From Planctomycetota bacterium (GTDB lineage Bacteria > Planctomycetota > Planctomycetia > Planctomycetales > Planctomycetaceae): DNA of 64,000 nt. This document shows, one piece after another, positions 54,830 through 64,000 of this stretch (the stretch's first letter is position 1; each line of letters begins with the position of its first letter). The DNA lies in assembly GCA_018242525.1 (NCBI GenBank), contig JAFEBS010000052.1:62001-126000 (forward strand), written 5' to 3'. The position numbers were made by a program, and so were the translations under genes. The notes beneath the pieces are model-generated. The model was not told where the DNA came from. It saw only the letters and a list, made by a program, of their open reading frames with translations, and made no database searches.

Positions 54830-56242
54830 ATGTTGACTCGCAGACATATCCTTCAGCGTGCCGGAGCCGGGTTCGGGGCCTTGGCTCTGCGATCGCTTTT
54901 GGCCAGTGACGGACTGCTCGCAGAAGATGCGGCGGGCAGTCCGCTGCTGGCCCGACCGCCTCACTTCGCTCCCAGGGCCCGCGCGGCGATTTTTCTGTTC
55001 ATGTACGGCGGTCCGAGTCATGTAGACCTGTTCGATGAAAAGCCGGCGCTCGCCCAATGGCACGGCAAGGCCATTCCCGTCTGGAAAGATTCCGACGCCT
55101 TCATGGGCAGCAAGACGAAGAATGTCGCGATGGCCAGCCCGTATCGCTTCGCGCGGCATGGTGAGTCGGGAATCTCGATTTCGGAGACGTATCCGAAACT
55201 GGCCCGGCAAGTGGACAAGCTCTGCGTCATCCGGTCGATGCACGCCGAAAGCAACAATCATGGCCCCGCGCTGTTTCAGATGAACTCCGGTTCGATCCTG
55301 GCGGGCCGGCCCTGCATGGGTTCGTGGGTGAACTACGGGCTGGGCTCCGAGAGCGACGACCTGCCCGGCTTCGTCGTGTTGCTCGATCACCAGGGAGCAC
55401 CGGTCAACGGCGCGATGAACTGGTCGAACGGCTTCATGCCCGCCGCGTTTCAAGGAGTGCCGTTCCGCAGCAGTGGCGAGCCGATCGCATATCTCACGCC
55501 GCCGAAGTCGGTCACAACCGCGCGTCAGCGATCACGACTCGACCTGCTGAAAGATTGGAACACTCGATACGCCGCAGAACATCCGGCGGAAAGCGATCTC
55601 GCCGCGCGGATCGAATCTTACGAACTGGCCTTTCGCATGCAGATGAGTGCCAGCGAATGCACGGACCTCAGCCGCGAGCCGGATCACGTTCAGCGACTGT
55701 ACGGTCTCGACGACAAAGTGACCGCGCACTTCGGCAAGAACTGTCTTCTGGCGCGGCGAATGGTCGAACGTGGTGTGCGGTTCGTGCAAGTCTACAGCGG
55801 CGGCAACGAAGGCCCGAAAGCCTGGGATGCTCACGACGATCTCAAGAAGAATCACGATTTGCACTGTGCCGAAACCGACGGACCGATCGCGGCCTTGCTG
55901 GAAGATCTCGACGCCCGTGGATTACTCGATACGACGCTCGTGATCTGGGGCGGTGAATTCGGTCGCTCACCGGTCGCAGAGAACGGCAAGGGCCGCGACC
56001 ATCATCCCAAAGGTTTTTCGATGTGGATGGCCGGCGGCGGAATCCAAGGAGGCGTCACTCACGGAGCGACCGACGAGTTCGGCTACGACGCCATCGAAGC
56101 TCGCGTTTCCGTCCCCGACCTGCACGCGACGATTCTGCATCAACTCGGCCTGGATCACAAACGACTCACCTACCGATTCAGCAACCGCGACTACCGCCTC
56201 ACCGACGTCAGCGGCAACGTCTTGCACGAACTGCTGACGTAA
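54830..56242 (+). CDS. DUF1501 protein, Tat-exported
   Basis: A 470-aa DUF1501 family protein. Twin-arginine signal 'TRRHILQRAGAGFGALALRS'. Family marks: 'AIFLFMYGGPSHVDLFDEKP', 'CVIRSMHAESNNHGPALFQM', 'FVQVYSGGNEGPKAWDAHDD' and 'WGGEFGRSPVAENGKGRDHH'. It follows the DUF1549/1553 gene with 144 bp between, the standard DUF1549-1553/DUF1501 pairing, and probably works with it at the cell surface. It is the last chromosomal-type gene before the island. Confidence 0.92.
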   Translation: MLTRRHILQRAGAGFGALALRSLLASDGLLAEDAAGSPLLARPPHFAPRARAAIFLFMYGGPSHVDLFDEKPALAQWHGKAIPVWKDSDAFMGSKTKNVAMASPYRFARHGESGISISETYPKLARQVDKLCVIRSMHAESNNHGPALFQMNSGSILAGRPCMGSWVNYGLGSESDDLPGFVVLLDHQGAPVNGAMNWSNGFMPAAFQGVPFRSSGEPIAYLTPPKSVTTARQRSRLDLLKDWNTRYAAEHPAESDLAARIESYELAFRMQMSASECTDLSREPDHVQRLYGLDDKVTAHFGKNCLLARRMVERGVRFVQVYSGGNEGPKAWDAHDDLKKNHDLHCAETDGPIAALLEDLDARGLLDTTLVIWGGEFGRSPVAENGKGRDHHPKGFSMWMAGGGIQGGVTHGATDEFGYDAIEARVSVPDLHATILHQLGLDHKRLTYRFSNRDYRLTDVSGNVLHELLT

Positions 56243-56347
56243 AGCGGCGAAAGCATTGGACTCGCCCAACACGCTTCCAATAAAACGACGTTCGCCGAAG
56301 ACATTGCCGACGAGGAAGTACTGCGCGCCTGATTGGTAAGAACGACA

Positions 56348-56372
56348 CAACCCTCTGTTTTGCAGAGGGTTG
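56348..56372. repeat. 10-bp hairpin beside the tRNA fragment
   Basis: CAACCCTCTG pairs with CAGAGGGTTG around a 5-nt loop, immediately past the tRNA 3' end. It could be the original tRNA terminator, although it lacks a clear T tract on the minus strand. Confidence 0.5.
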
Positions 56373-56376
56373 CAAG

Positions 56377-56418
56377 TACGCCCGCCAGGATTCGAACCTG
56401 GGACCGACGGATTAGAAA
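56377..56418 (-). pseudogene. 3' half of a tRNA-Arg(TCT), probable attachment-site remnant
   Basis: On the minus strand this runs from the anticodon loop TTTCTAA (anticodon TCT) through TCCGT, the T-arm CCAGG-TTCGAAT-CCTGG, and the acceptor strand CGGGCGT with discriminator A. CCA is not encoded. The 5' neighbour of the loop (GGGCA) cannot pair with TCCGT, and no D-arm or 5' acceptor strand follows. The gene is thus a 3' half cut at the anticodon loop, a standard crossover point for tyrosine integrases. Confidence 0.72.
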
Positions 56419-56436
56419 TGCCCCGTTACCTTTCGG

Positions 56437-56456
56437 GAGGGTATCGGATACCCCTC
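56437..56456. repeat. 20-bp palindrome next to the tRNA fragment
   Basis: GGGTATC and GATACCC form perfect arms around one base, 20 bp from the tRNA break. Possible recombinase arm site or chance. Confidence 0.4.
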
Positions 56457-56522
56457 AGACCCAACAAAACAAGGCGTTTCCGGATGACCAGTTTTCCCGT
56501 GAACCCAGCCTTTTGACAAAAA

Positions 56523-56551
56523 GTGGGTACAGTTTTCAAAAGTGTACCCAC
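56523..56551. repeat. 9-bp inverted repeat GTGGGTACA ... TGTACCCAC
   Basis: Perfect 9-bp arms are separated by 11 nt (GTTTTCAAAAG, itself nearly symmetrical). The TGGGTACAGTTTT-like look resembles insertion-sequence ends, but no transposase is nearby. Confidence 0.45.
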
Positions 56552-57087
56552 CTTATGCTCATCACCGTCTGCTGACCGCTGTCGAACGGAATCGTATGGA
56601 CTTCAGCCACGGTTCCGGTCATAGCATTCATCTCCGACAAACACAACCTGCCAGGTGCACAAGGCGACCCGATCAAGTCGGAGATCCGACTCGACCAACG
56701 AACATCTTTTGCATCGTGTCGTCAGCCTCTTTGATCGGATGGATGCCCTCTATTCACGAAACTCGCCGATTTGGCAATCGCGAGTTCTGAAACCCGTTGA
56801 CGATGTCGATCTGAATTGCGATACTGCGAACGCGTAAGGACGCCGAGGTGACTCCTGTACCTCATTGCACACTTGCATTGGGAGGCCGCCAAAAGGAGGC
56901 GGTTCGCAGTAGAGTTATCATTGAGCAGGATCGCTCACCCTCGCTTGACATGCTGGACCCCGACAGCATTCCGCGAGATTTCCGGTCAAACCGATCGGCA
57001 GTCTTGCGGTGTGCGCTGTCCTGAATGGTAAGGCATCGTACCAGAAAGACTGCCTCAACACCCACTCATGTGTTTGGAGGTAGTTTC

Positions 57088-57393
57088 GTGACGAATCGCA
57101 CGTCATCCATCAGTTGCTCCGTGGAAAGCCTGATTCCACTTGCCATCCCCGTTGAAGCATTGCGGCCGTTAATTGCCGCAGCGCTCGAATCAACAGGCAT
57201 CCTTCCAGGTTGGCCCCTGGGTAGAGTCGCACTTCAGGAAGGTGAAGCAGCCGAGTGCATTGGCGTAAAGCCGCATGTACTTCGCGATGCACGTATACGC
57301 CTGCGTCTGCCGCATTCTCTCATCGGCCGGACGGTGACCTACAACGCAGAGCAGCTCCGAGTCGCGCTGAACCGGATGGCGATCAATTCGTGA
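57088..57393 (+). CDS. Small HTH/excisionase-like protein
   Basis: A 101-aa protein. The GTG at 57088 has GGAGG seven bases upstream. The C-terminal half ('AAECIGVKPHVLRDARIRLR ...' then 'TVTYNAEQLRVALNRMA') resembles a winged or MerR/excisionase-like DNA-binding helix set; the N-terminal half ('LIPLAIPVEALRPLIAAALE') is helical. First gene of the island after the tRNA fragment, a usual place for excision or regulatory genes. Family assignment tentative. Confidence 0.55.
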   Translation: MTNRTSSISCSVESLIPLAIPVEALRPLIAAALESTGILPGWPLGRVALQEGEAAECIGVKPHVLRDARIRLRLPHSLIGRTVTYNAEQLRVALNRMAINS

Positions 57394-57484
57394 GACATTT
57401 TGTTGCCTCAAAGTCTTGCACACTCAAATCCCACGATAACCCTACCGTCTGCACATGGTACGGGGAGAACTTCAGGAAACGGTT

Positions 57485-58381
57485 ATGCCCAAAAAACAAA
57501 ATCAGAAAAACACACAGAGCGACGTCACTCCAAAGGAAATTCGTTCAGACAGGTGGCTTCGCAACCAACACGGAACCTACTTAATCACGTATCCAAAACC
57601 TGGAACGTATGAATTGAAGCCGATCGCCAATCACGGAGTTCACATCAGAACAATTCTATTTTTACTGCATACGCATGGCTGCGAAGTCCAGTATGTTTTG
57701 CAGTTTTTCACTCCACACGGTCATGTGGAATTGCGAGTTCGTCATGAAGACTTGGCCGACGAGAGGGCTTTTCTCAATGTCGCTCCTCCTGGATTTGCGC
57801 TGACATACGTGGCTCACGCCTTCACACTCCTCAGGGAATGCCTGATGGGTGACTTGGTCCATGCAACACGAGAGGCCACTCTCACAGTTCTGGGCTGGTA
57901 CATTTGGCAGAAGAAGCCTGTTTTCGCGCACGCTGGCGGAGTGATTCGTTCCGAAGTGGATTCGTCTGGAATCAAACTGGAAACGGGTTTCGGAACAGTA
58001 AAAAACAGTTCTTTGGTTGACATCGATCAATTGTGTTCCGATGTTCCGATTCTGGCCGGTCAACACAGGCCCATCGAGAAATTGCACGTACAGGTTCCTG
58101 AGCAATTCCGCAAATATCGCTTACACACCCCGACTTCCGAAGCTGAATCCAGAGAGGCAATGCGAGCAGTGTTCGACCTCTTATCGCTCGGCAAGCCTGA
58201 TGTCACGTATATCTGTGTGTCCGCCATATTTGTGACAGTAATTCGTGATCCACGATTCGCGCTCTTCCTTTACGGGGAGACCTGCAACTGCTGGCCAAGG
58301 TTGTCGATCTCGCCCATACCTGGATTTACCAGCAGGCGAATTGAGCGCTGTCCGAACAACGGAATCGATGACTGCCGGTGA
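57485..58381 (+). pseudogene. DUF927-like ATPase gene, broken before Walker A
   Basis: 298 codons from the ATG at 57485 (AGGAA upstream). The middle and C-terminal parts follow DUF927-type primase/helicase-associated ATPases: 'GWYIWQKKPVFAHAGGVI', 'LHVQVPEQFRKYRLHTPTSE', 'AVFDLLSLGKPDVTY' and 'FALFLYGE', just where 'GPTGAGKS' should follow. Instead the frame reads TCNCWPRLS and soon ends. In another frame the DNA continues 'DLQLLAKVVDLAHTWIYQQA' to a stop, a plausible coding tail. This suggests a deletion or frameshift that removed the ATPase core. The family link is by pattern only. Confidence 0.55.
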
Positions 58382-58452
58382 CCCGCCCCTGACATTCCTT
58401 GATGTGATACTGGTCGTCACAAATCGTCTGTTTGAAATCGGGGGACGCGGCA

Positions 58453-59523
58453 ATGGAATCAGCATTCCAAACGCTCGTTGAACGGGGCCGAAAGGATCTC
58501 CGGACAAAGTACTTGCGTGGAGGCCAAGTCCAGGCGGAGCCGCTGTTCGACGCGGAAGTAAAGTTGATTCAAAGCCTGAACCTGGACGAGTCCCTGGTCC
58601 GGTTGTCCGAATACAGCGATCAGCTGCAACAGCGGGACGTGTACTTTCACGCGATCGGTTCCGGGTGTTCATCCGTCGTCCTGTTTGTGCTCGGAATATC
58701 CCGTGTCAATCCGATCGAACATGACACGTATTTCCAGCATTTCTGGCAAACGTCCAGCGGTGAGTCACCAATTCTTCAATTGGTTGTGGACTCCATCGGA
58801 AAACCTGGTTTCGGTAACGTTCCCCAGCCTTTCTGCGTGTCCGCCCACTCCATGACTGCCTTGGAAGCGATCCCCAATCGGGTGGAATCACTTATCGGGC
58901 CGATCAAGACAACCAAGCTGGATCAGGCCACGCTCGCATCGCTTCAGGCTGGCGATACAAACGATGTCTTCCAGTTCCACAGCGAGCGGGCCAAATGGCT
59001 GCTCAGCCAGATTCGACCGACGAACATCGAGGAACTGGCTGTTGTCACCGCCTTGGAACAACTCAGTCACAACCACCCGGACGTTGTGTTCAGTTACCTG
59101 GAACAATACCAAGAGATTCTCACAACCCGTTACGTGACGGGTCGCCGTGCTTCTTCGGAAGCGAAACATCGGCTCCCCATCCTATTTCAAGAAATGCTGA
59201 TGAGCCTGTTGCGGCATCTGGCAAAGTTGCCCTGGGACGTGACCTATCCATTCATTCGGGATGCAGCGAAAGGTCGGGTAGACGATCAACACGAACACTG
59301 GCGGACTGCCTTGGGGCTGACGAATGACCGTTCTTCCGAGGATGCCAAAAGGCTGTTACGAACAATCGCCGAGTCCAGCCGCTGGGCCGTCTGTCGGGCA
59401 CATCACATTGCGAATGCCCTGACGAGTTTCAAGGCCGCCTATTATCGGACTCATCACCGGGTGGAATTCGAGAACGTTCGAACACAAATCATCGAGTCCA
59501 CAAGCCACGGAACAACATCGTGA
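58453..59523 (+). CDS. Miniature DnaE-like (C-family DNA polymerase alpha-subunit) protein lacking catalytic aspartates
   Basis: A 356-aa protein. I chose the ATG at 58453 (GGGGGA upstream). It follows DnaE's palm-fingers in order: 'GSGCSSVVLFVLGISRVNP' (residues 69-87; DnaE GRGSAAGSLVAYxLGITxVxP), 'DVFQFHSERAKWLLSQIRP' (171-189; DnaE GxFQxxSxGM), 'FQEMLMSLLRHLAKLP' (245-260; DnaE YQEQVMxIxxxLAG) and 'CRAHHIANALTSFKAAYYRT' (314-333; DnaE NKSHAAAYxxxxYQTAYLKA). Where DnaE has MPDIDIDF and FDFLGL with its three aspartates, this protein has 'SPILQLVVDSIG' and 'FCVSAHSM'. There is no PHP, beta-binding or OB domain. Likely non-catalytic. The stop overlaps the next start (GTGA). Confidence 0.62.
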   Translation: MESAFQTLVERGRKDLRTKYLRGGQVQAEPLFDAEVKLIQSLNLDESLVRLSEYSDQLQQRDVYFHAIGSGCSSVVLFVLGISRVNPIEHDTYFQHFWQTSSGESPILQLVVDSIGKPGFGNVPQPFCVSAHSMTALEAIPNRVESLIGPIKTTKLDQATLASLQAGDTNDVFQFHSERAKWLLSQIRPTNIEELAVVTALEQLSHNHPDVVFSYLEQYQEILTTRYVTGRRASSEAKHRLPILFQEMLMSLLRHLAKLPWDVTYPFIRDAAKGRVDDQHEHWRTALGLTNDRSSEDAKRLLRTIAESSRWAVCRAHHIANALTSFKAAYYRTHHRVEFENVRTQIIESTSHGTTS

Positions 59524-60092
59524 CTGACGCAACTTCAGAACCACGCAAGACGAAGCCGCGCAAGAAGGCCGCACGGACTTTATCCAAGTCGAGTGGTCCA
59601 AAACCAGAAAAAAAGGATCATCCAGATCGCGACCGTCGAGTACGGCAGGCGGATCGTCTGGCGCGAGTTTTGCGCGTACTCGAACTGATTCAAAGCCGTG
59701 GACGTTGGACAACGAAAGCCATCGCCGAAGAAATCGAGTGTTCGGAACGAACCGTTTATCGTGACCTGGATGTGCTCCGGTTCCTGCAATCAATCGCCGA
59801 GATCAAGACGGTGGGACATCTGATCGACTCAGATCTCTCCCACGATGTGTCTTGGGATACGGCCCGTCAGGAACTCCGCTGCCAGGCAGAGGCTGAGTAC
59901 TTCGACATCCCGCGTGGCCGCATCGTGTGGGACACCGTGCATCGAGCCGGGATTCTGTATCACGGCAACGAAACGCCTGTAGAAGCATTCGAAGAACTGG
60001 CCAGACTGTTCCGTCTGCCAAGGTGGGAGGCCCGGCTGGATGAACACTACCTGACCGGAGAGGCCCTGGAAGAGTTCTATCGGTTGGACTGA
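59520..60092 (+). CDS. HTH (DeoR/WYL-type N-domain) protein coupled to the DnaE-like gene
   Basis: A 190-aa protein. Its GTG start at 59520 overlaps the previous TGA, so the two are translationally coupled. It has a Lys/Arg-rich N-terminus (about 1-45), then HTH_11-type 'VLRVLELIQSRGRWTTKAIA' and 'IECSERTVYRDLDVL' (about 50-95). The C-terminal region ('LIDSDLSHDV ... FRLPRWEARLDEHYL') matches no ligand domain I recognise. It shares the HTH pattern with the gene at 62749. Likely DNA-binding regulator or DNA-targeting partner of the DnaE-like protein. Confidence 0.68.
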   Translation: MTDATSEPRKTKPRKKAARTLSKSSGPKPEKKDHPDRDRRVRQADRLARVLRVLELIQSRGRWTTKAIAEEIECSERTVYRDLDVLRFLQSIAEIKTVGHLIDSDLSHDVSWDTARQELRCQAEAEYFDIPRGRIVWDTVHRAGILYHGNETPVEAFEELARLFRLPRWEARLDEHYLTGEALEEFYRLD

Positions 60093-60148
60093 AAGTCCAT
60101 TGAACAACGCCCCTGCGCAAAACCCCATCCCTGCCAAGGAATTCCACA

Positions 60149-60343
60149 ATGAGCTTTCACCGCGAACTTTACACGTTCACTCATGTCCTGTTCATGACAG
60201 GCGCCATTGCACTGACCATGACCGGGATGTACGCCGCACGACACCAGCATGGGTCGATTCGCGAACTGTCCCGAATGGACGCCAAGTCGGCCTGCCTCAC
60301 TCTTAACAAACGAATCGCGACAAATCTCGCGCAGATGGCGTGA
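60149..60343 (+). CDS. Small membrane protein
   Basis: A 64-aa protein. The ATG at 60149 has AAGGAA eight bases upstream. One hydrophobic segment 'FTHVLFMTGAIALTMTGMY' with basic residues after it suggests a single membrane helix. No family recognised. It lies between the HTH gene and the metallo-hydrolase gene on the same strand. Confidence 0.55.
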   Translation: MSFHRELYTFTHVLFMTGAIALTMTGMYAARHQHGSIRELSRMDAKSACLTLNKRIATNLAQMA

Positions 60344-60388
60344 TCACCTTTTCACTCGCCGAGAGCACCAGAAAGGCCGGACAACACC

Positions 60389-61693
60389 ATGCAAATCACA
60401 ATCCACCGAGGAACTCACGAGGTCGGTGGAAGCTGTATCGAGATCGCAACAGATCAAAGCCGGGTGATCCTCGACGTGGGAATGCCCCTGTTCAACGAAG
60501 ATCGCGAGCCCTACGACTCCGCAGCATTGAGACGACAATCGCGTGAGGAACTCAGGACCTCGGGCGTGCTCCCCAAAGTCCCCGGACTGTTTGACGAGAC
60601 TGGTCCGAGTCCCGACGCCATCCTGCTCTCACACGCCCATGAAGATCACACAGGGTTGCTGCGGCATTCTCCGAATGATGTTCCGATCTATGCCAGTGTG
60701 GGGACCAGCAAGATGATGCTGGTTGGCTCAAAGTTTGCCGGGCAGCCTTCGCTTCCCAGTGATCGACATCATGAACTCCCGTCCGGAAACACGGTACAGA
60801 TCGGGGATTTCAAAGTAACCGCGTTTTCGGTCGATCATTCCATCTATGGCGCCCAGGCTTTCCTGATCGATGCGGATGGCAAGTCGATCCTGTACTCTGG
60901 CGACCTGCGCATGCACGGCCGTAAACCAGGGATGCACAGGGCACTCATCGAGGCGGTTCAGCACCGTTCCATCGACGTGTTCCTGATGGAGGGAACCCAC
61001 ATCAATCATCGGGATCATCGAAATCAGAACGAATACCAACTCGAACGGGAGATCGTCAGGCACGTTCAATCGGCAACAGGATTGGTGCTGGCCTCCTTCT
61101 CTCCTCAACACGTGGACCGGCTGGTCGGCTTCTACAGGGCCACGGTCAAAGCTGGTCGAATCTTTGTGGTCGACGCCTACACAGCCTTTGTGATGTATTT
61201 GATCGCCTCAGAGATCCCTGTTCCCCGGCCGGAATCTTCGCCCGAAGTGAAAGTCTTTTTCCCAAAATACTTCGAGGAGAATTACCGGAAGAAACAACTC
61301 GAAAAGCATTTTCTCTTGATGTCCCCGGCCAGGATTGGAATGGACGAAATCCGCTCAAATCCATCTCGATATGTGATGCTCTTCCGACCCAGCATGCTGG
61401 ACAGCGATTTCGGCGGAGACATTCCAGATCACTCCCGCTGTCTCTATTCCCGCTGGGAAGGCTATCTCGACCGACCTGACTGGCGACTGGTCAATGCGGC
61501 TTTGGAAAACGTCCACGGTGACCTGATTGAAGTCCATACGAGCGGTCACATCGTCTACGACGATATTATCGAATTGGTGGGACTGATTCAGGCGAAGACG
61601 GTAATTCCGGTTCACACTTTTGAACCAGAGATGTTCATGGAGTTCTCATCCAGAGTAAGAGTCTTGGCGGATGGCGAACGAATGGTGGTGTAA
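60389..61693 (+). CDS. Metallo-beta-lactamase-fold hydrolase, RNase J/beta-CASP-like
   Basis: A 434-aa protein with the metal-binding motifs of the MBL fold: SHAHEDH (His82, His84, Asp86, His87), a His in 'VDHSIYGA' and Asp in 'LYSGDLRMHG'. The C-terminal 'HTSGHIVYDD' and 'VIPVHTFEPEMF' match beta-CASP motifs used by RNase J/CPSF-type nucleases. The beta-CASP insert lies about residues 190-360. Expected to cut or trim RNA (or DNA); shorter than RNase J. Last of the rightward island run, convergent with the PD-(D/E)XK gene. Confidence 0.8.
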   Translation: MQITIHRGTHEVGGSCIEIATDQSRVILDVGMPLFNEDREPYDSAALRRQSREELRTSGVLPKVPGLFDETGPSPDAILLSHAHEDHTGLLRHSPNDVPIYASVGTSKMMLVGSKFAGQPSLPSDRHHELPSGNTVQIGDFKVTAFSVDHSIYGAQAFLIDADGKSILYSGDLRMHGRKPGMHRALIEAVQHRSIDVFLMEGTHINHRDHRNQNEYQLEREIVRHVQSATGLVLASFSPQHVDRLVGFYRATVKAGRIFVVDAYTAFVMYLIASEIPVPRPESSPEVKVFFPKYFEENYRKKQLEKHFLLMSPARIGMDEIRSNPSRYVMLFRPSMLDSDFGGDIPDHSRCLYSRWEGYLDRPDWRLVNAALENVHGDLIEVHTSGHIVYDDIIELVGLIQAKTVIPVHTFEPEMFMEFSSRVRVLADGERMVV

Positions 61694-61729
61694 TCAGTTT
61701 GGCTGTTGAATCGCGAAATCGACCGACTG

Positions 61730-62566
61730 TCACCAGACCGAATGGTCACCGTGACCGAAGGCAATCGTGAATTCGCTCAGGCTGGTTGAAGACATCGGAT
61801 TCTGTACCGCGACAATCCGGCGAACGACATTCGAAACTGGACAGTCTTGCGCCATCAGGAACGAAGACATCGAACTGGTGAGAGCCAAAAACTCTTGGCT
61901 GATCTGATCCGTCGGGTATCTAAGCAGGATTAGGCAGATGTCGACCCCTGGCCCCAGTTGACTTTCTGCAAATCGGCCGGGAAAAGCCTTCTGTAGACGA
62001 GTCAGTTGTGATGGTGTCGAAAGTTCGATGGCATACATCAGGCTCTGAATCAAGCCGAAGAATGGATTCACATCCGTGTCGGCCTTGATCTCACCCACAA
62101 TGGGCGTCCGATCCTGGAAGTTGCTGAGCAGTAGATCCATTCCACCAGCCCCTGAGGATTGACCGGATTCCCCGTTTTCGAGCTCGGATTTTGTCGTTCG
62201 GAGTGGGTTAATCTGGTAGTCAACGTACTGAAAATCAAGATGTGGCGCTGCTTCAACCGTACCAACTTTGCGGTCGCTTCCAACGAGTTGTTGGACGAGC
62301 ACATTCGCCAAATGCCTGTTGTCAAGCATCCGGTCGGACAGCCTGCCTTCAACTCCGCGATTGTGGAAGCCCTCGTTGCGGTTGTCGTAAAGTGAACAGT
62401 GCTCTCGACTCTCAATGGCCAACTTCGCCAACTGCTCTGGCCGTCGACAAAGTTCCCGGGCGACCGCCAAATGAAAGTCCTCACTGGGGAAGTCACGGAG
62501 CAGTCGGTACAAATGGCGAAGTGCCGTGATTGGAATCAGGCGTTGTAGCGATGATTGGCGTCTCAT
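61730..62566 (-). CDS. PD-(D/E)XK nuclease-like protein
   Basis: A 278-aa protein. I chose the ATG at 62566; a TTG-initiated extension is possible. The motif 'GGMDLLLSN...PIVGEIKAD' has Asp144 followed 15 residues later by Glu159-Ile-Lys161, the PD-(D/E)XK nuclease signature, and 'NPFFGLIQSLMYAIELSTPS' resembles the following helix in such folds. No family name recognised; the N-terminal 100 residues ('LIPITALRHLYRLLRDFPSE') are unassigned. It is divergent from an HTH gene whose operator candidate lies in between. Confidence 0.6.
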   Translation of the reverse strand: MRRQSSLQRLIPITALRHLYRLLRDFPSEDFHLAVARELCRRPEQLAKLAIESREHCSLYDNRNEGFHNRGVEGRLSDRMLDNRHLANVLVQQLVGSDRKVGTVEAAPHLDFQYVDYQINPLRTTKSELENGESGQSSGAGGMDLLLSNFQDRTPIVGEIKADTDVNPFFGLIQSLMYAIELSTPSQLTRLQKAFPGRFAESQLGPGVDICLILLRYPTDQISQEFLALTSSMSSFLMAQDCPVSNVVRRIVAVQNPMSSTSLSEFTIAFGHGDHSVW

Positions 62567-62646
62567 CCTTCCATCATGACTATGCGCTGTGCCAACAGTG
62601 GGGCACCGCAAGTCTGCGCGAAAATCCGCGTTCCAGCCAGTGGCAA

Positions 62647-62681
62647 CTGTGGGTCACATCACAGGCCACAGTGACCCAGAG
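62647..62681. promoter_or_regulatory. Palindromic operator candidate between divergent island genes
   Basis: CTGTGGGTCAC at 62647-62657 and GTGACCCAGAG at 62671-62681 are inverted copies with one mismatch and 13 nt between. It lies between the nuclease gene (leftward) and an HTH gene (rightward), where that regulator could bind. Confidence 0.5.
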
Positions 62682-62748
62682 ATGGCAGCGGAATGACCTA
62701 TCGTCTCAGTCCTGAACTTCTCCGAGAAGCGGACTGTGTGGACGAGGC

Positions 62749-63150
62749 ATGGACAAGAAGCAACGAACTGATTCCGAGCGCCGTCTGCGCCAATGCGAAC
62801 GGCTGAGCCATTTGCTCAAAACACTCCATCTCATCATGGGCAAGGGACGGTGGGATGCCGACGGGTTGGCGGAGGAACTCGAATGCTCCCGCCGCACGGT
62901 ATATCGTCTGCTGCAAACGCTCTCGATGGCTGGTGTCCCGTGGTACTTTGACAAATCTTGCCGAGCCTACCGCGTCCGACCTGGCTTCAAATTCCCGGTC
63001 ATCGAATTAACCACTTCCACAGATGTGGGTGTCGCGCACACCTCGAGCGAACTGAAGCCGCTTGTCGAAAAGCTGATCGCTGACGGCGAGGCGGTTATCG
63101 CGACGCTAAATCGGTTCCTGAAGACTCTTCGCGAAGTCCAAGAGGGCTGA
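62749..63150 (+). CDS. Second HTH protein, paralogue of the gene at 59520
   Basis: A 133-aa protein. 'LKTLHLIMGKGRWDADGLA' and 'LECSRRTVYRLLQTL' form the same HTH_11 pattern as the gene at 59520 (R-x-RQ-x2-RL..., GRW, ECSxRTVYR). The tail 'YRVRPGFKF' is a typical post-HTH strand seen in WYL-group regulators, but the WYL domain itself is missing. Likely autoregulates through the palindrome upstream. Confidence 0.7.
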   Translation: MDKKQRTDSERRLRQCERLSHLLKTLHLIMGKGRWDADGLAEELECSRRTVYRLLQTLSMAGVPWYFDKSCRAYRVRPGFKFPVIELTTSTDVGVAHTSSELKPLVEKLIADGEAVIATLNRFLKTLREVQEG

Positions 63151-63378
63151 CGACGGGTACCATGCGTTACGATTTGGAAACGCTGTCAAGCCACTCGCAA
63201 AGAATTCCATTTTCCCTGCAATCGCGATCGGCTGGGAATACAGCGATTCTCGGTTCCTTGCCGCACCAGTGAAAACACACGGTTTCCGAAAGTGCCCTTA
63301 CAATCAGTCGTCACGTTTTGCTGCAATAGGCTGCAGCAAAGACTGCGATCGTTGCGAAAAGGGGAAGGGGTACGATTT

Positions 63379-64000
63379 ATGGTGACGGCTGTTAAGGGAA
63401 TTGTCGAAAAATCTGAGATTGTTTTATTCAGCGATTTCTGGGAATGGGCCAGCAGATGTATAGCAGATATTCGACAAAACGGGCTTCGTGGAGCAATACC
63501 TCCGGACTGCGTGGGCGACGATTGGGACGATGACTTCGCAAATTCGTATGAAAACATTCACCCCATCCTGAAAGAGTTCTTCAACGCGAAGTTCTACGAG
63601 GTTCCGCCTGGCATCCCAAATTGTTCTGCGCCGTTCGTGGCCGAAACCGGACACCAGGCTCTCATGTTTTTCCTCAATCCGACCAACGCGCTGTATGGCG
63701 CGGCCCCGTTTTTTGAGACGAAGGAGTTTCAGAACATTCTGGATTCAGCAATTTCTGAACTCAAGAAGAAACAGGAAAACTGGGTGCATTCGGGCGACGT
63801 TCAAACCAAGCCCTCGGTTCGAAACCGTCGGAAAAATCGTAATGGCCAATTGAGCGAGGATGGCTTGTTATTGCATGCGTACCTCTGTGCCGGACACAAA
63901 TGCAATTCGGAAGAGCCTGACCTTCAGCCGCTCGGTAATCAGACGTTCATGGCCGAACAACTTTCTCACCGAGGACGGGCCTGGGACGGTACGAGAGTCA
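63379..64000 (+). CDS. Unknown gene, 3' end outside window
   Basis: An open frame from the ATG at 63379 (GAAGGGG about ten bases upstream; GTG at 63382 also possible) runs over 207 codons without a stop to the window's edge. It has a mildly acidic N-terminal region ('DDWDDDFANSYENIHPIL'), 'KKKQENW', a basic patch ('RNRRKNRNG') and then 'LSEDGLLLHAYLCAGHKCNS ... FMAEQLSHRGRAWDG', which could be a winged-helix-like segment. No family recognised. Confidence 0.6.
   Translation, partial: MVTAVKGIVEKSEIVLFSDFWEWASRCIADIRQNGLRGAIPPDCVGDDWDDDFANSYENIHPILKEFFNAKFYEVPPGIPNCSAPFVAETGHQALMFFLNPTNALYGAAPFFETKEFQNILDSAISELKKKQENWVHSGDVQTKPSVRNRRKNRNGQLSEDGLLLHAYLCAGHKCNSEEPDLQPLGNQTFMAEQLSHRGRAWDGTRV

Follow-up and report, generated by a model that had tools for sequence, protein, structure and literature searches.

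Identification of a partial tRNA-Arg(TCT) gene

The DNA analysed, hereafter the window, is a stretch of 64,000 nucleotides (C47:62001-126000) from a 99-contig draft genome of 8.45 Mb. Direct reading of the minus strand between 56419 and 56377 revealed the 3′ half of tRNA-Arg(TCT), which we have designated F1. F1 is 43 bp long (ATTTCTAATCCGTCGGTCCCAGGTTCGAATCCTGGCGGGCGTA) and extends from the anticodon loop to the discriminator base; its T arm is intact, with full pairing retained in the T stem. The matching 5′ acceptor strand, the D arm and the 5′ anticodon strand are all absent. ARAGORN returned zero tRNAs across the whole 64-kb window, and the Rfam tRNA model gave F1 19.5 bits, which is below the gathering score of 29. 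The initial annotation, in which the tRNA was present only from the anticodon loop to the discriminator base, was therefore correct on this point; it had carried the feature on to 56456, and 56420-56456 is element DNA rather than tRNA.

Directly 3′ of F1, on the same strand, is a hairpin of 11 base pairs (56347-56373; -18.7 kcal/mol, z -5.7), which on its folding energy is likely to be the native tRNA terminator, kept on the chromosome side. The nearest gene to the left (54830-56242, plus strand), taken from the ORF list, encodes 470 amino acids; it is chromosomal, lies outside the element described below and was assigned by search to a large planctomycete family, which we take to be DUF1501. 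Approximately 63 bp between this gene and F1 (56275-56338) recurred with 81-85% identity in several genomes of the family, and these matches did not include the left-flank gene. The GC content was 59.2% to the left of F1 compared to 53.6% in the element to its right.

Further copies of the tRNA 3′ half

Two more copies of the F1 segment were found in the genome, one at the right end of C47 (F2; 91% identity, E 6e-11) and one at the right end of a second contig, C74 (F3; 88% identity, E 2e-8). An exact 15-mer from F1 occurred at five sites only, which were the window, the end of C47, both ends of C74 and the start of a third contig, C11. As the 15-mer is confined to the array that these contigs make up, and the genome holds two further copies of the segment, F1 is not a chance match. 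Each of the three copies lies at an element end and their orientation is identical. They are not identical in sequence because their T stems differ: CCAGG/CCTGG in F1, GGAGG/CCTCC in F2 and GGGGG/CCTCC in F3. A second genomic copy had been anticipated at the outset, as an identical segment of 42 bp; two were found, and the homologous segment is 43 bp with T stems that vary between copies.

Element E1

The integrated element between F1 and the second truncated copy, F2, was designated E1 (plus strand). As delimited by the F1 and F2 copies and by GC content, it occupies 56418-64000 of the window and continues to C47:128026, at the end of C47 and approximately 2 kb beyond the window edge. Its size of 9,649 bp, like that of approximately 48,548 bp for the second element, E2, was obtained by position arithmetic from the copy coordinates. 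A tyrosine integrase had been predicted beyond the right edge of the window, and one (integrase 1) is encoded within 2 kb of that edge, at C47:126659-127951. Integrase 1 matched PF00589 (E 3e-14) and the PHROG integrases (E 1.5e-27), and its stop codon is 74 bp from F2. The fall in GC content, integrase 1 and the copy at the end of C47 bear out the proposal that the half tRNA marks an integration boundary.

The two ends of E1 have in common a 14-bp inverted repeat, AAAAGTGGGTACAG, located at 56519-56532 (plus strand) with its inverted copy near the other end of the element, and a further 9-bp copy of the core, TGTACCCAC, at 56543-56551 (plus strand), in which the same core motif is inverted. 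These were found by a shared-word search in which 0.04 shared words of at least 11 bp were expected in shuffles. The repeats at the ends of E1, and those at the ends of C74, fit integrase arm-type sites, and both E1 sequences are candidates for such sites.

The cargo of E1 was analysed from the ORF list and family scans. Three ORFs had no family match: 57025-57393 (plus strand, 122 aa, scanned as a 102 aa in-frame version), 57485-58381 (plus strand, 298 aa) and 61730-62611 (minus strand, 293 aa). The ORF at 58432-59523 (plus strand) encodes a short DNA polymerase III alpha-like protein of 363 aa. Its alignment skips the stretch holding the catalytic aspartates, and because this region is absent the product is probably not a working polymerase. 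An HTH_11 / WYL-type N-terminal regulator is encoded at 59520-60092 (plus strand; PADLOC and Pfam-type scans), followed by a metallo-beta-lactamase-fold protein resembling RNase J / CPSF at 60389-61693 (plus strand). A second HTH_11 / WYL-type regulator, at 62749-63150 (plus strand), is 61% identical to one in an element of G059, a genome of another genus. The presence of a defence system in E1 was considered and rejected, as PADLOC returned generic WYL/CARF-type regulator matches only.

A homologous element in another genus

The G059 element, on contig C77, consists of a tRNA fragment, an element of approximately 10 kb and an intact tRNA-Arg(CCT), all on one contig, with the second copy of the tRNA 3′ half 9.96 kb away. 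It is the only case in which tDNA and fragment were continuous on a single contig. Its integrase is 69.5% identical to integrase 1, and the two elements also have in common a small ORF upstream of the integrase, a regulator, another ORF and part of the metallo-beta-lactamase protein. The left end of E1 (56418-56437, plus strand; ATGCCCCGTTACCTTTCGGG) is similar to that of the G059 element (ATGCCCTGTCGCGTTTCGGA), and directly after the tRNA part the G059 element reads ATGCCCTGTCGCGTTTCGG and E1 reads ATGCCCCGTTACCTTTCGG. The identity between F1, F2 and F3 meets the identity between the element left ends (those of this genome and G059:C77) at 56413-56419 within the anticodon loop (minus strand; TAGAAAT on the plus strand), and these identity boundaries define the crossover zone.

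The missing 5′ half and the Rfam score under the cut-off might suggest that F1 is a pseudogene left by decay of a tRNA gene, or that part of a tRNA gene was duplicated by chance, with no integration involved. We regard this as extremely improbable, as the break in the anticodon loop coincides in position with that of the homologous element from another genus, both composition and gene content shift there, a second copy and an integrase are found in the expected orientation at a distance of 9.6 kb, and the T stem is fully paired.

Contig overlaps and element E2

Exact overlaps of 24 bp were found between the end of C47 and the start of C74, and between the end of C74 and the start of C11. An intact tRNA-Arg(TCT) is formed at the C74-C11 join, beside a second integrase (integrase 2) and approximately 58 kb to the right of F1, and the C47-C74 join contains the truncated F2 and no intact tRNA. 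From these joins we infer the order chromosome - F1 - E1 - F2 - E2 - F3, in which F3 is part of the intact tRNA. The two parts of the intact tRNA lie on different contigs of the 99-contig draft, and the order C47-C74-C11 accordingly depends on short overlaps. In this order all of the 3′-half copies are on the minus strand, share the orientation of the tDNA and lie downstream of it, and a separate fragment and integrase can be assigned to each array member (F1 with integrase 1, F2 with integrase 2). An intact minus-strand tRNA-Arg(TCT) had been predicted beyond the right edge next to the integrase; it is present at the C74-C11 join, but the copy beside integrase 1 is truncated. The expected integration is likewise borne out, but the locus appears as a tandem array of two elements rather than one island. 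At the start of C11, on the 5′ side of the intact tRNA, there is an integrase-like gene (L143:133-1491) which matched PF00589 with 23.8 bits compared to a cut-off of 27.1.

C74 appears to constitute one 48.5 kb element, E2, encoding RepA, ParA, a MobF relaxase, ArdC and its own integrase. Its ends have in common an 18-bp direct repeat, which suggests that C74 is one whole element. Integrase 2 (C74:47200-48375, minus strand) matched PF00589 (E 4e-9) and the PHROG integrases (E 5.5e-37), and starts approximately 150 bp from F3; plausible catalytic arginine, histidine and tyrosine motifs were identified by eye in both integrases. The congener G012 (C25, L109) encodes a product with 88% identity to integrase 2 over 332 aa, a short distance from the 5′ side of its tRNA-Arg(TCT). 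A scan of selected C74 proteins showed the relaxase to be a TrwC protein with a helicase domain (MobF; E 3e-70) and further revealed a weak ParB match, a serine resolvase, an FAD monooxygenase and a large protein with weak RHS matches. A match to the coupling-protein domain TrwB_AAD_bind scored 20.1 bits, just under the Pfam cut-off of 20.5. With RepA, ParA, the MobF relaxase, ArdC and the serine resolvase among its products, E2 looks like an integrated mobilizable plasmid. It resembles MobF integrative mobilizable/conjugative elements in its TrwC relaxase with helicase, RepA, ParA, ArdC, tyrosine integrase and tRNA-gene site; the coupling-protein match under the Pfam cut-off, among the selected proteins scanned, sets it apart from them.

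The end of C47 and the start of C11 also have 19 bp in common, and the plasmid-type genes on C74 (RepA, ParA, MobF relaxase) would suit a separate circular plasmid or an element located elsewhere. C47 would then join C11, and a single element would separate F1 from an intact tRNA located where C47 ends. We consider this arrangement improbable, as the ends of C74 do not overlap each other, yet each overlaps C47 or C11 by exactly 24 bp, and one overlap includes F2-specific T-stem bases, the other CGTTG from the tRNA 5′ half.

The assembly of a complete tRNA-Arg(TCT) from C74 and C11 also bears on whether F1 could be expressed as a split-tRNA half, or as a small RNA with a function of its own. 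The strong hairpin after F1 and the intact T arm would agree with such expression, but the genome has a complete tRNA, and the DNA upstream of F1 is that of an element resembling the left end of the homologous element, so that a functional half gene is hardly to be expected here.

The ancestral tRNA and the order of insertion

A predicted ancestral tRNA, consisting of the 5′ half on C11 joined to the 3′ half in F1, was used as the query against relatives. A congener, G013, encodes an intact tRNA identical to it at 75/75 positions, with flanks that differ from those of the window. As a result, F1, matching a 3′ half present in a complete tRNA of the genus, appears to be a native-type 3′ half. 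Insertion into a tRNA gene pushes the older 3′ half outward, so E1 would have inserted first and E2 second.

No unoccupied site with matching flanks was found in the congeners, which were compared by their flanks and are not syntenic with the window, and when the left flank was used as the query, most matches were to paralogues of the gene at 54830-56242, which is an abundant one. Of the empty-site comparison that had been proposed, no syntenic relative could be obtained, but the predicted ancestral tRNA is present base for base in G013. When 14 congeners and one other family member were screened by motif for integrases near tRNA-Arg(TCT), downstream candidates were obtained in G003 only, at a distance of 9-10 kb; the search pattern was crude and several contigs end early, so this result carries little weight.

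Relatives of integrase 1 and variation in the tRNA T arm

A scan of genome contigs with integrase 1 identified two relatives (70% and 69% identity) that adjoin tRNA-Arg(CCT) and tRNA-Arg(ACG), respectively, with the same geometry; the first of them is the integrase of G059:C77 described above. Among 248 genomes of the class, relatives at E <= 1e-80 were present in 12 genomes including the window's own. With the window's own locus excluded, a tRNA-Arg 3′ half was located within approximately 210 bp of the integrase match at 9/12 loci; L192, counted among the 12, is cut off by a contig end, and no tRNA T-loop motif was found within 330 bp at L189 or L191. The anticodons beside these relatives were CCT, ACG and TCG according to ARAGORN, and TCT, read by eye, at the contig end of L195.

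One of the two named relatives is from a MAG titled uncultured Schlesneria sp.; Schlesneria is placed in the Planctomycetaceae. The integrase 1 match in this MAG agrees in contig number and coordinates with the match in G002, a genome listed in the genus to which the window's genome belongs. In this MAG a 6.4 kb contig (G060:C250, L140) has a tRNA-Arg(ACG) 3′ half near each end, and another tRNA-Arg(ACG) 3′-half copy adjoins the integrase 1 relative on contig C254. These halves are perhaps a second stacked array. Elsewhere in the window's genome, a 48-bp tRNA-Arg(CCG) 3′ fragment (G000:C5:140555-140602, L180:1501-1548) is 100% identical to the intact gene on C58, and probably represents another island boundary.

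At the tRNA-Arg(TCT) loci of congeners (L058-L082) the 5′ half was near-constant and the T stem occurred in eight forms among 15 genomes. The mean pairwise difference for tRNA-Arg(TCT) was 0.178 in the T arm compared to 0.005 in the 5′ part. The corresponding values were 0.109 and 0.010 for Arg-CCG, 0.182 and 0.075 for Arg-CCT (four sequences left out), and 0.065 and 0.009 for Lys-TTT, which was the single non-arginine control. As other tRNAs also vary more in the T arm, this variability was rejected as proof of overwriting. The contrast, strongest for TCT and set against one non-arginine control, is compatible with repeated overwriting and suggestive only.

Discussion

The fragment in the window is, very probably, the displaced native 3′ half of tRNA-Arg(TCT), with two tDNA elements stacked at one site and F1, on the evidence of its sequence, its further copies and the intact version in a congener, as the outer boundary of the array. 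The tyrosine integrase of E1 would recombine the attP of E1, which contains the element's own 3′-half copy, with the anticodon-loop region of the tRNA-Arg(TCT) gene. This insertion would rebuild a working tRNA at one end and move the native 3′ half, together with the hairpin, 9.6 kb away. E2, which is 48.5 kb, plasmid-like and encodes a different integrase, would later have entered the rebuilt tRNA likewise, displacing the copy brought by E1. The fragments, the two integrases, the lower GC content, the contig-end overlaps, the intact tRNA, the congener tRNA and the homologous element were observed directly; the contig order, the sequence of the two insertions, the action of the integrases and any present mobility of the elements are deductions from them.

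The array is of a known kind, tandem tDNA islands, and its signature was already described by Islander, which reported anticodon-centred crossovers and tandem arrays, with 125 tandems of two or more among 3,919 islands (PMC4383910). The features in common with those tandem islands are a regenerated tDNA, a displaced 3′ fragment in the same orientation, a tyrosine integrase, a length within 2-200 kb, an anticodon-centred crossover (their site A), and a fragment and integrase for each array member (PMC4383910). Unlike the Islander islands, the array spans draft contigs, so that its continuity is inferred, and its three 3′ halves are different T-stem versions, which makes the insertion layers distinguishable. 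This is what allows the insertion order to be read, as it could not be from identical repeats. The tRNA fragments left behind by such insertions have also been described (PMC9897764). PYG1 of Pyrococcus yayanosii similarly has a 44-bp repeat with half a tRNA on one side and the complete tRNA on the other, but it is archaeal, uses tRNA-Gln and is a single 21.4 kb element rather than two stacked elements (PMC9897764).

The mechanism is otherwise textbook. Two points are less ordinary: a single locus holds three 3′ halves that can be told apart, and integrases of one clade are associated with several arginine tRNA genes. The analysis defines the ends of two mobile elements, in a planctomycete whose genus also includes a MAG named Schlesneria, and indicates an integrase clade beside arginine tRNA genes with four different anticodons. 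A more tentative and rather doubtful extension is that, in this genus, mobile elements repeatedly overwrite the 3′ half of tRNA-Arg(TCT); the T arm would then change faster than the 5′ half, the displaced halves would be a record of earlier versions of the gene, and related integrases may have spread across the whole arginine tRNA gene set.
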